This document shows, piece after piece, positions 19,801 through 26,485 of a DNA stretch of 64,000 nucleotides. The notes under the pieces are model-generated. The model saw nothing but the letters and a program-made list of their open reading frames with translations. It did no database searches and was not told where the DNA came from. Every line of letters begins with the position of its first letter. The first letter of the stretch is position 1. This DNA is from Cloeon dipterum (taxonomy: Eukaryota; Arthropoda; Insecta; Ephemeroptera; Baetidae), in contig NC_088786.1 of assembly GCF_949628265.1 (NCBI RefSeq), positions 38,399,681-38,463,680 of the forward strand, read 5' to 3'. The position numbers and the translations under genes were made by a program.

Positions 19801-22583
19801 CAAAAACGCTTGAATTAAATTGTTATTTTCCTCTTTTATACATACACTATGCGCTTTGTTGCTAAAAACCTCTAATTTTTTCTTACAGGTGCCACCCAGC
19901 CTAGTGGGCCTGGCTATCAAAGCTGTTTATGACAACATCGATAGTTTTGACGAGGAATTACTTAAGACCTGTATTGGTAAGCATTAGCAATTTCTACATA
20001 AAAATAAAAAAATTTCAAAACGTTGCTCTTGAAAACAGTCTTTGACAAAGTTTCTGAGCACACCAATCGATTCTTGAGGGTCGAATTGGGGAAAGTGGAT
20101 AATTTTTTTTCCGCCCAAATATTGCAGCGCGACTTGCGAACTTTATATCCCGCCAAAACAATATGAATGCTAGAACTGCGCAAGCGTAAAAGCTGGTTTG
20201 AGCACTTGCAGAGAGACTGCCTATACGAATGACTTCTTTGTCAGACCCATTCAACTCTGACGCATGCGCACTTCTCGTTAAGACGTTCAAATGATTTTGG
20301 CGGGAAAAAGTTCGCACGTCGCGCTGGACTTATTGGTCGGAAAAATCTCCACTTTAGCTAATTTGACCCTCCAGAATCGATTGGTGTGCTCAGAAACTTC
20401 GTCAAAGACAGGGTCTTTCAAAAAATGAATGAAATATATATTATGTTGAACTGTATCACAATGATGAATTTTAAAGACGAATTAATTTTAAGGACCTGTG
20501 CGGCGGGAGATGCTCGAAGATATGTTCCGAAAGGCGAAGGACCATTATTCAAAATGCCATTACGGCGAAACAAATCATAATGACAAAATATGGGCAATTC
20601 TGCCTTGCTTGATCAAGTCCAAATTTTATACAAAAATTGACATCAGCTCTTTGACGTTCACGGGCTGCAAATACTGTACCTGGCCCAACTATCGCTTTCA
20701 AGAGGTAAATTGCATTTTAAATTAAAAATTCCATTATGTAATATTTATGATTAATTTTTCAGTTCATCAGGTGTTTAGGGACAAACACTCCGAACCTGAA
20801 GGAATTAAAAATGATTGGTTCCAGCAATTTTGAAAATTCACTCGAAGAGCGCGAAGTGGCTTCGATTGTTCAGCTCAAGAATTTGACCATCCTTGACATT
20901 TTTAGAGTTCAGGTTTCTCTGTCAGGAATTTTGGACATCTCCCGACGATGCGAAAAATTAATGAAAATCAGAGTGATTAAATCTGTCAGAATTGACGAAG
21001 AACCTTCAATTCCTACCCTCGTCAGGGATGACTTTGCGTACGTCCACATCGAGGCGTTATTGAGCGTTGGTTTGGTATCCCTGCACATGGATACTACAGA
21101 ACCAAATCAGAACCAAGATAATTCAACTAAGAATTATTCCATTACTTTGAGGCATCAGCCAAGATATATTCGAGAGTTTTCTTTGGCACTACCATTTGCT
21201 AAAAAACTACAGGGCATACATGTAAGAATTTGTTTCCCTTTTACTTCAGTAAATTTTAATAAATTAATATTTCAGATTGATTGCATTCTCCTAGAGGATA
21301 CTGAAGAAATGGTCGAGTTCCCGCACCTTCCAGTAATAGAATACGCAAGGATTGATTGCAATAGTAAATCTGCACACGCCTTAAGGTGTTTCCTGGAAAG
21401 AAACGGAGAGACTCTTCAAGTGTTGCATCTAAGTGGTATTCACAGCGAGGAGAACATGACCTTCAGCGAAATCTTCAGCTTCTGCCCTCATCTTCAGTGC
21501 TTGGAATTATTTGATTGCTATTTATCTGGGAATGATGCACCTGTTGATGCGATGCAACAACTGAAACGATTTGAATGGAGCAATTTTGGAAAACGGTATG
21601 GAAATTATAGAAAAAAATTGAATTTTTAGAAAGCCGTACAAAACTTTCTTTTTACCCTGGTTGGTAATTATGCTTCTAACACGTGAATGTGAATTTTTTT
21701 CATTCTTTTGCTAATTTTAGTTTTAAACCATGCAAAATCTTTTTTTTTATTTTAAATTTCCCAATTTTTAAATATTAATTAAGCCTGTTTTTATTTAACA
21801 GTCCAAATAATTTAATTTAAGCACACTAATCGATTTTTGAGGTTCAAAATAGTTAGAGTGGGTATTTTTCCGACATAAAAGTCCAGCGTGACGTGCAAAT
21901 TTTTTCCCGCCAAAACATAATATGAGCGAGAAATGCGCATGCGCAAGAGCTGGGTTTAAGCTCTTGCAGAGAGACCACCCGTACGAATGACTTCTTTGTC
22001 AGATCGAGCCAGCTCTCACGCATGCGCACTTCTCGCGAATAGGCTCATATTGTTTTGGCGGAAAAAAAATTCGCAATATGTAGCGCTCGCCTTTTTGGTC
22101 GGTAAAAATATCCATATTTTACCTAATTCGACGCTCTATAGAATCGATTGGTGTGCTGAGTAACACCGTCAAAGACGGCCTTAAAAATAAAACAGGAAGA
22201 GAAAGGAAAAGGTTTCATAAAAAAAATTTGATTTTTTGACCAATTTTTCGTTGTTTTCTCTCATTATTGTTTTAAATCATTGCAGTTATTCCCTCGATGT
22301 CGTCGCTTTTTCGAGCATTTTGTCAGCGCCTCTTCTTGAAGATCTCTGCATTGTCCTGTACAAAATTGACTTCAGCGACAACGCCACCGTCACTGCTCGG
22401 ATTCAACGACGCGAAATCTTGCAGAATCTCAAGGAATTTTATATGCCTATGATGGAATACACTTTCGAGATTTTCGGGGGCGACAAATATCCCACTTACT
22501 TACAAGGTTTCAATGTTTTGAATACCACTATTATTCATTCAATAAAAATCGCTAGTGGGGCGGATTACTGCACCGTTATTTAG
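16874..22583 (+). CDS. F-box/LRR-like paralogue B
   Basis: Second member of the local family; function unknown. Exons 16874-16876 (ATG only, then GTAAAG), 19889-19976, 20493-20704, 20763-21221, 21276-21595 and 22286-22583, with the same phases as A, C and D, give 459 aa. The N-terminus (MVPPSLVGLAIKAVYDNI) resembles a SKP1/elongin-binding box. Conserved IWAILPCLIKSKF follows, then irregular leucine-rich segments: NTPNLKELKM, QLKNLTILDI, CEKLMKIRV, HLPVIEYARIDC, ETLQVLHLSGI, CPHLQCLELFDC and a last-exon SSILSAPLLEDL. A role as substrate receptor of a cullin ligase is inference from architecture only. Intron 1 is expanded to 3 kb by an insertion, and introns 2 and 5 each carry a foldback element. 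Confidence 0.75.
17290..19545. mobile_element. GC-rich unclassified insertion in intron 1 of gene B
   Basis: Absent from the paralogous introns. It differs sharply in composition from its surroundings and contains fragmentary reading frames on the minus strand. The best is 18885-19121 (LTREERELMDRYLWWISPER), with upstream minus-strand sequence 19122-19329 (LTEDECRLYILEFNCLM) in another frame. 17870-18060 has a CCAATAAATCAG signal and a pyrimidine-rich stretch that could be terminal-repeat-like. It may be a decayed retroelement. I do not recognise a domain. Confidence 0.45.
20030..20420. mobile_element. Foldback element in intron 2 of gene B
   Basis: Arms GTTTCTGAGCACACCAATCG (about 20061) and CGATTGGTGTGCTCAGAAAC (about 20378), with TTTGGCGGGAAAAAGTTCGC on the right arm and a degraded mirror on the left. 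The core carries CTCTGACGCATGCGCACTTC. Confidence 0.8.
21815..22185. mobile_element. Foldback element in intron 5 of gene B
   Basis: Arms GCACACTAATCGATT and AATCGATTGGTGTGC. Inside are TTTTTTCCCGCCAAAACATA on the left and TATTGTTTTGGCGG on the right, with AAATGCGCATGCGC and CGCATGCGCACTTCTCGC around a loop. Confidence 0.8.
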
Positions 22584-23488: not shown

Positions 23489-26485
23489 ATGGTAAAGATT
23501 AATTTTTAAAACTCGCGGGGAAGTTCCTTTCCTTTATTTCTCACTGCTAATAATTTTGAGGCGTATTTTTGTACGAATAATATAGCAGCCGCGGGCTTCG
23601 ATTTCAAAATTGGCTAGAGCAGGAAAGGCCAAACAATCGAAAAAGTTGAAATACTGAGCTTCTTGCTAAAAATACCTAATATTTTTTTCTTACAGGTGCC
23701 ACCCAGCCTAGTGGACCTGGCTATCACAACTGTGTATGACTACCTCGATTATTATGACGAGGACTTACTTAAGACCTGTATTGGTAAGCAAAGCAATATC
23801 TAAAGATAAAATAAAATAAATTTCAAAATGATATTGCTCTTGAAGATTGTCTTTAACGAAGTTTCTGAGCACACCAATCGATTCTTGAGGCTCGAATTGG
23901 GGAAAGTGGATATTTTTCCGCCTAAAAAGTGCAGCGCGACCTGCGAACTTTTTCCCGCCAAAAGAATATGAACAAAAACTGCGCATGCGTCAGAGCTCCC
24001 ACATAGTCAACCACTGGCTGCTAGCAACTGACGTGGCACGTTTCCTCGGCCACACACACCAGCTCTTACACATGCGCAGTTCTTGTTTATATTGTTTTTT
24101 TTGTTTTGCTCGCTTTATCCCTGTTCTCTCGGACCGGGAAGGGCGCTTACTGCACTAGCATGAATGCTGAAACCCTGGTCCCAATAACACCGCGAACGGA
24201 TTGAATGGGCGCACCTGGACGCACAGGGACCCAGTTCAATGAAGGGCCACTTGCCTCCGCATCCGCAACCCGAGGACTGCATTTAAACGCTAGACATTCG
24301 TCCCTTGATGCTGGAAAGGTGCAAAGCAGCAAGTAGCGAGTTGGCCTAGATTCATGCAGCAGGCAGCCGGGCGGTCACCCACCCACCTACTGACTGCCCT
24401 CAATGTTGCTTAACTTCGGTGATCTAACGAGAAACGGTTTGTCCAACATGCTATGCCCTACACTAAGGTTTGGCGGGATAAAAGTTCTTAAACGTCACCC
24501 TAGAAAATATTATACACTGTACCTCATTCGGCTCTGAAGAATCGATTAGTGTGCCCAGAAACTTCGTCACAAACGGGGTCCTTTAAAATATTAATGATAT
24601 ATATATATATATATATATATGTTAAACTGTATCACAATGATGAAATTGAACAACAAATTAATTTAAAGGACCTGTGGACCAGAAGATGCTCGAAGAAGTG
24701 CTTGGAAAGGCGAAGGACCATTATTCAAAATGCTATCACCGTGAACAAAATGAAAAAAAGCACAATGACAAAATATGGGCAATTCTGCCTTGCTTGATCA
24801 AGTCGAAATTTCGTACAGAACTTGACTTCAACTATTTGACGTACACGGGCTGCAATTGCTCTACCTGGCCCAACTCTCGCTTTCAAGAGGTAAAATGCAT
24901 TTTAAAATCTTAATTCCATTTTATTTAATATTTATGATTAATTTTTCAGTTCATCAGGTGTTTAGGGACAAACACTCCGAACCTGATGGAATTAAAAATT
25001 GGTGGTCCCATCAAATTTAAACATTCACTCGAAGAACGCGAATTGGCTTCGATTGTTCAGCTCAAGAATTTGACCATCCTTGAGATAATTCGAGTTCGTG
25101 CCCCTTTGTCAGGAATTTTGGACATCTCCCGTCGATGCAAAAAATTAAAGAAAATCACAGCAGACACTGTCGCAATTGACGAAGTACCTGCTTCAATTCC
25201 TGCCCTCGTCAGGGATGACTTTGTGAACGTCCACGTCGAGGCGAAAAATTTGTGCCATGGGTTGATATTCCTGCACATGGAAACTGCGACGCCAGAATGT
25301 GACCCGTATTTTTCAACTAGGAAGTGTTTCATTCATTTGAATGATTTTCCGAAAAAATATCGACAGTTTACTTGGGTACTACCATTTGCTCGAAAACTAC
25401 AGGGAATACATGTAAGAATTATTTGTTTCCATTTTACTTCAGTAAATTTTATTAAATTAATATTTCAGATTGATTGCGTTTTCCTAGAAAATACTGCAGA
25501 TAAGGTTGATTTCCCGCACCTTCCAGTAATAGAATTCGCAAGGATTGATTGCAATAGTAAATCGGCACGCGCCTTAAGGTGTTTCCTGAAAAGAAACGGA
25601 GAGACTCTTCAGGTGTTGCATCTAAGCGGTATTCGCAGCGAGGAGAACATGACCTTAGGCGAAATCTTCAGCTTCTGCCCAAATCTACAGACCTTGCAAT
25701 TAGATGATTGCAATTTATCTGGGAATGACGCACCTGTTGATGCGATGCAACAACTGAAACGATTTTGGTGGAGAAATTTAAGGTTAGGTCGAATTCATTG
25801 AAAATTATGCATTTTACGCCATCCAAAACTCTTTCTTTTACTCTGGTTGGTAATTTTATGCTTCTAACACGCAAGTGTACATGTTTTTTTTCATTTATTT
25901 TCCGATTTTAATTTTTAAACCTGCATACTTTTTGTGATACAGTCCATGTAATTTAATTTAAAGTCCAACTTTGACGAAGTTAGTGAGCTCACCAGTATAT
26001 TTTCTTGAGAGTCGAAATAAATAGAGGGGATACTTTATGTGACAAAGAAGTCCAGCGCAACGTATTGGTGGGCTCTGAATCAGACACTTCCTTAAAGACA
26101 GTCTTTAACAAAAAAATAATAAACAGGAAGAAGGAAGGTTTTATTAATGAAAATTTGATTATATGACTAATTATATTGTTCGATGTTTTGTCTTATTATA
26201 GTTTTAAATCATTGCAGATATTCCCCTGATGTCGTCGCTTTTTCGAGCATTTTGTCAGCGCCTCTTCTTGAAGATCTCTTTATTAACGTGTACGAAATTG
26301 ACTTCAGCGACAACGCTACCGTCATTTCTCGGATTCAAAGTCACAAAATCTTGCAGAATCTCAAGAAGTTAAAAATGGATGATAGGATGAAATTCACTTC
26401 GGAGAGTTCCGAGGGTGACTATTACACTTACATAAAAAGTTTCAATGATTTGAAAAACGCTATTTGTTCAGTAATTCGCGTATAG
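23489..26485 (+). CDS. F-box/LRR-like paralogue C
   Basis: Third local family member. Exons 23489-23491 (ATG only), 23696-23783, 24669-24889, 24950-25411, 25469-25782 and 26218-26485 give 451 aa with no internal stop. Exon 2 encodes VPPSLVDLAITTVYDYLDYY. Exon 3 has three extra codons relative to B (REQNEKKHND). Leucine-rich segments: NTPNLMELKI, QLKNLTILEI, HLPVIEFARIDC, TLQVLHLSGI, CPNLQTLQLDDC. The exon 5 donor is AG|GTTAGG rather than the CG|GT of B and D but keeps phase 2. Intron 2 contains a foldback element that is itself split by a 5S-derived SINE. No disrupting mutation is visible, so the gene looks functional. Its biochemical role is unknown. Confidence 0.75.
23845..24560. mobile_element. 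Foldback element in intron 2 of gene C, split by a SINE
   Basis: Left arm GTTTCTGAGCACACCAATCG at 23860, with CTTTTTCCCGCCAAAAGAAT and ACTGCGCATGCGTCAGAGCT. The right arm resumes after the SINE with TTTGGCGGGATAAAAGTTC and GAATCGATTAGTGTGCCCAG. The SINE sits where TATTGTTTTGGCGGG should be continuous. Confidence 0.8.
24093..24466 (-). mobile_element. 5S-rRNA-derived SINE (SINE3 type)
   Basis: Read on the minus strand, the head matches 5S rRNA over its internal promoter: GATCACCGAAGTTAAGCAAC (A-box region, about 24402-24421) and GGTGGGTGACCGCCCGG (C-box region, about 24368-24384), preceded by GTTTCTCGTTA. A non-5S body of ~250 bp follows, ending in an A-rich tail (plus-strand TTGTTTTTTTTGTTTTG near 24093-24108). 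The 5S 3' half is absent, so this is a pol III-promoted SINE and not a 5S gene. It interrupts the foldback element of intron 2. It does not encode a protein. A partner LINE is not identifiable here. Confidence 0.85.

Follow-up and report, generated by a model that had tools for sequence, protein, structure and literature searches.

A dispersed SINE family with a 5S rRNA-derived head in Cloeon dipterum, and its body shared with differently headed copies

The sequence analysed in this study (the window) is a stretch of 64,000 nucleotides of Cloeon dipterum (NCBI RefSeq assembly GCF_949628265.1, contig NC_088786.1, positions 38,399,681 to 38,463,680 of the forward strand), and positions within it are counted from its first nucleotide. 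Tandem paralogous genes were observed at 7.9-9.8, 19.9-21.3, 23.0-25.5 and 28.9-30.2 kb, and the one paralog scanned gave a leucine-rich-repeat match below the Pfam cut-off. The region of interest lies in a putative intron of this tandemly repeated gene, 23784-24668 on the plus strand, assigned from GT..AG borders with flanking exons in frame; the borders, at approximately 23784 and 24668, are a reading of the sequence. The intron carries a foldback element, with its left arm at 23837-24012 (plus strand) and its right arm in two pieces, 24061-24092 and 24467-24574 (both plus strand), located on the low- and high-coordinate sides, respectively, of an inserted SINE at 24093-24466 on the minus strand. 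The left arm was delimited by an inverted-repeat search, and the right-arm pieces by the same search together with alignment of the joined SINE flanks. Two pairs of arm segments were found, 23849-23917/24506-24574 (77% complementary) and 23960-23997/24061-24098 (87%), and the foldback itself is present in many copies, a search with 40 scored candidates giving 78 matches.

An earlier reading made from the sequence alone (the sequence-only reading) had proposed that the SINE inserted after the foldback was in place, splitting its right arm, and comparison with other foldback copies upheld this order. When the SINE flanks were joined, 7 of the 7 foldback loci examined, and also the window's own left arm, aligned across the joint without the SINE. 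Paralog alignment identified an empty site in the paralogous intron at 20195-20440 (plus strand), where right-arm sequence is present and the SINE absent, the alignment being poor on one side of the joint. Since both the foldback copies elsewhere and the paralogous intron lack the SINE, the SINE entered an existing foldback. Foldback sequence was also located between the same exons in the paralogs at 7.9-9.8, 19.9-21.3 and 28.9-30.2 kb, and the likely order of events is foldback, then gene duplication, then SINE.

The SINE at 24093-24466 is one copy of a dispersed family, in which a 5S-derived head is followed by about 240 nt of non-5S body and by an A-rich tail. The head (24343-24463, minus strand), which contains box A, the intermediate element (IE) and box C at what we take to be their boundaries within 5S sequence, was defined by consensus alignment (91% over 121 nt, 24463-24343) and by Rfam, which placed 5S_rRNA at 24351-24465 on the minus strand (55.5 bits, cut-off 38, E 6.8e-9, model positions 1-120), the sole RNA family in the window to reach its gathering score. 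The body (24108-24341, minus strand), which is also common to the head-B copies described below, aligned to the body consensus at 83% (24341-24108) and lacks 14 nt present in most aligned copies, and the tail (approximately 24093-24107, minus strand) was read from the sequence. The three parts that had been proposed for the element, a 5S-derived promoter head, a non-5S body and an A-rich tail, were therefore all recovered. The sequence-only reading had also set continuous 5S identity beyond box C, as in a 5S pseudogene, against a SINE. Similarity does continue past box C, with a weaker 3' part that reaches the 3' end of 5S, and the condition applies in part; it does not refute a SINE, because the 5S/body fusion recurs at more than 100 places in the genome. 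The element at 24093-24466 is thus very probably a 5S-headed SINE of the SINE3 type.

Copies were sought in the assembly from which the window was taken (190 Mb, 10 contigs). The DNA search returned 40 scored matches from 1608 candidates, with identities of 76-100% and positions on all five long contigs. A word spanning the 5S/body junction was found at 115 genomic places when up to three mismatches were allowed, and an exact gapped junction pattern at 29, the reversed-pattern control giving 0 in each case. The expected many dispersed copies were accordingly found, and a single-copy sequence was ruled out. The body word alone occurred 1152 times (up to two mismatches), and a five-fold TTAGG telomere word, sought as a sign of the host group, had no match in the assembly. 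An alignment of 40 copies, including the window copy and leaving out the longer duplicate loci L002 and L003, revealed a common head and body with an A-tail present; five of the 40 rows (L035, L041, L042, L043 and L045) were without the 5S head.

When the genome was searched for 5S genes, 47 matches passed the cut-off, of which 34 scored at least 101 bits, one scored 78.8 and 12 fell between 41 and 72; at least 8 of these 12 weak matches were known SINE copies. The organism's own 5S sequence was 92.6% identical to the SINE consensus head over 81 nt (head positions 17-97). The SINE consensus word TTGAGTGCAGTCAGTA is also present in L048, one of six own 5S genes compared, the other five differing by at least one base. 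An identity profile against the own 5S gene was computed by local alignment, head ends being counted only where aligned, for 34 copies; the five rows without a 5S head and L019, whose body start was not found by the script, were dropped. Similarity to the own 5S gene peaks in the IE and box C of the internal promoter (184/198 and 548/587 identical positions, 0.93 in both parts). Box A, at 404/474 (0.85), was hardly closer to the 5S gene than the stretch preceding it (0.83), and lower values were obtained for positions 1-20 (0.80), positions 73-79 (163/237, 0.69) and the last 21 positions (103/153, 0.67). In its predicted fold the head consensus still forms a terminal helix like that of 5S (z -2.18, 10 of 200 shuffles equally good), a result that carries little weight since the own 5S gene sequence itself reached a z of only -1.32. 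As a separate observation, the own 5S genes among the 35 best matches listed were either dispersed singletons or lay close together in small groups and inverted pairs (for example at C2:6.97 and 7.13 Mb and at C5:29.5 Mb), with no single long tandem array among them.

A second upstream sequence, here called head B, was found on the same body. It is about 178 nt long, starts with AACCAGCCCGTTGGCTCGC, and was joined to the body at 529 exact junctions as against 29 exact 5S/body junctions, a comparison in which exact patterns undercount the 5S-headed copies more because those copies are more diverged. The 40 best genome matches to the body consensus were 98-100% identical to it, and of the 20 that were read upstream, 18 had head B, complete or in part, and two had neither head; the head-B copies were picked by body similarity, and their apparent youth is biased accordingly. 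A third head was sought in 12 body copies absent from the listed head-B places, of which eight carried head-B variants, two only its last ~20 nt, and two neither head. The similarity of head B to 5S is limited to a 7-nt word. A tRNA origin of head B gained no support, as ARAGORN found no tRNA in five head-B loci and Rfam none at E<=5 in ten, where its only hit was a microRNA match in a flank (E 4.2); head B may still derive from a degenerate tRNA. Box-like words in head B were noticed by eye and given no weight as evidence.

Divergence from the consensus in 34 5S-headed copies, six of the 40 rows being left out as lacking the 5S head or as duplicates, was higher in the head (mean 0.095) than in the body (0.047; Wilcoxon p 2e-8), and therefore either the body is constrained or the heads have several sources. 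In a tree of 63 bodies (69 minus six duplicate rows), 5S-headed and head-B copies were interleaved with weak support. The tree implied 10 head changes for 5S and 11 for B, but the well-supported branches require no more than 1 and 2, respectively, and repeated head swaps were accordingly not established. The use of one body by both heads would be explained most simply by template switching or RNA joining that gave an existing SINE a new 5' end.

In the mechanism suggested by these features, box A, the IE and box C would recruit RNA polymerase III, the transcript would extend across the body as far as a T-run in the flanking DNA, and its A-tail would serve a LINE enzyme as primer for reverse transcription, leaving a target duplication that is very short or absent. 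The SINE consensus is free of TTTT, which was not retained as a meaningful feature, since about one-third of shuffled sequences are likewise without it. The sequence-only reading had looked for a 3' end shared with a LINE; this was not borne out among the LINE 3' ends examined (0 of 26). These were stretches downstream of reverse-transcriptase matches (10 + 16), chosen from 150 listed, whose LINE identity was taken from long match spans and which were judged only visually to reach the true 3' end; inspection of the 3' sequences by eye suggests about 20 families, several being sampled twice. In one set no shared word exceeded 15 nt, the longest perfect one being in the opposite orientation, and in the other no match was obtained at E<=1. 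Two of the 26 ends (L135 and L136) are poly(A), and it is possible that a partner LINE recognises the SINE through poly(A) alone. Beyond the 3' ends of L115, L119, L120 and L121, ATCGAT-containing tandem repeats of roughly 60 nt were seen by eye. A further candidate, in which the body is the 3' end of a full LINE, was rejected: five extended loci (7.4-7.6 kb) carrying the body or head B contained no open reading frame of 200 amino acids (150 for L090), and their pairwise alignments stopped at the SINE ends, save for a few weak or unrelated matches elsewhere.

The integration of the family was analysed through its target sites, using exact direct repeats only, in 41 full-length rows representing 38 loci (three appear twice). 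Target duplications, which SINEs usually have, had been expected from the sequence alone and did not appear at this resolution: none of the 41 rows had an exact duplication of at least 9 nt, and flank repeats of at least 7 nt were present in 5 of 41 (12%), compared with 9% in shuffled pairings. Most 5S-headed rows are too diverged to retain exact repeats, and the informative rows are the 19 with head B (16 loci), which likewise gave no duplication, most of their bodies being about 98-100% identical. The foldback site of the window copy is uninterrupted elsewhere and, as read from the alignments, shows no duplication beyond a short A-run. These results bear on whether integration occurs by a route other than ordinary staggered-cut target-primed reverse transcription, with few or no A residues duplicated or with cDNA captured at breaks, a reading that we hold with some reserve and lean against. 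It is favoured by the lack of duplications in the head-B rows and by the base directly preceding copies with an intact head-B 5' end, which is A in all 17 of them (the second place being A in 13 and the third in 11, local A background 0.42). Such A-rich flanks fit insertion at an A-run with either no duplication or one of A's only, or else one or more A's borne by the element itself. In eight other head-B copies, whose start lies about 9 nt deeper in the element, an A precedes the matched word in only one (four if the preceding CG belongs to the element). Also on its side is L099 (C2:22440623-22441358), where a headless SINE was seen by eye in antisense orientation within a 5S-headed copy that lacks its middle part, an arrangement that suggests a target deletion. 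A-only duplications would, however, merge with the A-tail and be indistinguishable from none, and integration without a staggered cut therefore stays a variant of the best explanation, that of a 5S-headed retroposed SINE. A fuller model, in which a strongly conserved body of about 240 nt has acquired new pol III heads (5S or B) time and again, leaves no staggered-cut duplication and uses a LINE enzyme without need of a shared 3' tail, appears to us unlikely as a whole.

Two other explanations concern what the 5S-headed copies are and how they now spread. That the window copy is a 5S rRNA pseudogene with chance neighbours would agree with 5S similarity along the full 5S length; this reading was rejected and is scarcely credible, as this one fusion of head end and body recurs at 115 junction places, against 0 for the control, and 34 of the 47 genomic 5S matches score at least 101 bits compared with 55.5 for the window copy. 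A second possibility is that the 5S-headed copies are now spread by duplication at the DNA level, as old SINEs carried in segmental duplications. Eight of the 10 genomic places of the body variant with the 14-nt deletion lie at C1:38.18-38.81 Mb, a span of 0.63 Mb that includes the window. The copies found at 38.27 Mb and 38.29 Mb have 841 bp in common at 97%. Some copies of this cluster are segmental duplicates, and part of the local set was therefore multiplied by DNA duplication; L031, L040 and L044 also have one upstream flank in common. As a general account this is nevertheless improbable, given that the 5' flanks of most other copies listed in the alignment seem unrelated by eye, and that the window copy has an empty site. 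Both heads were observed in the 14-nt-deletion cluster, the window copy carrying 5S and L035 part of head B.

SINEs with a 5S-derived head are known from vertebrates as well as insects. In the literature found, arthropod 5S-headed SINEs are described from Lepidoptera and Tribolium, as far as the available passages extend (PMC3272025, PMC8010984, PMC10886601, PMC7245038). The closest arrangement described in those passages is that of Helicoverpa armigera, in which the 5S-headed HaSE3 shares its body and 3' tail with the differently headed HaSE1, as in the present family, and 5S similarity is likewise highest at the promoter boxes, there A, IE and C (PMC3272025). According to the same text, HaSE1 has a tRNA-derived head and a 3' end matching an RTE LINE, whereas in the present genome the head-B loci scanned yielded no tRNA match and none of the 26 LINE ends was a partner; two H. 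subflexa relatives have 19- and 8-bp duplications and HaSE3.1 none, compared with 0 of 41 rows at 9 nt or more in this study. PxSE4, PxSE5 and other lepidopteran 5S SINEs are described as resembling the window family in having a 5S head with an A/IE/C promoter, and PxSE4 and PxSE5, at 389 bp each, have much of their body in common; unlike the window family among the 26 ends, PxSE5 has a 3' end that matches a LINE, a comparison by description only (PMC8010984, PMC10886601). SINE3-1_TC of Tribolium castaneum, also compared by description only, is another insect 5S-headed SINE, apparently mobilised by an I-clade LINE as stated in the passages available (PMC3272025, PMC7245038). Chimeric 5S/LINE-1 insertions resemble the window family in that a retroposed sequence has 5S attached at its 5' end, but the text available describes each as a separate, independent insertion, usually truncated and in antisense orientation, while here the 5S head is in sense orientation in a multi-copy family (PMC13174262). 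No description of this SINE family was found among the open PubMed Central papers searched, compared by description. The SINE family is genuinely 5S-headed and belongs to a known kind, and the arrangement of two heads on one body was already known from HaSE3/HaSE1.

Two features deserve to be followed further: copies with another head, which are the commoner ones, use the same body, and target duplications are not visible. Near-identical copies without such duplications raise the question of which enzyme integrates them. With a more diverged 5S-headed set and a commoner, near-identical head-B set on one body, head replacement and its effect on the success of a SINE are open to direct study.
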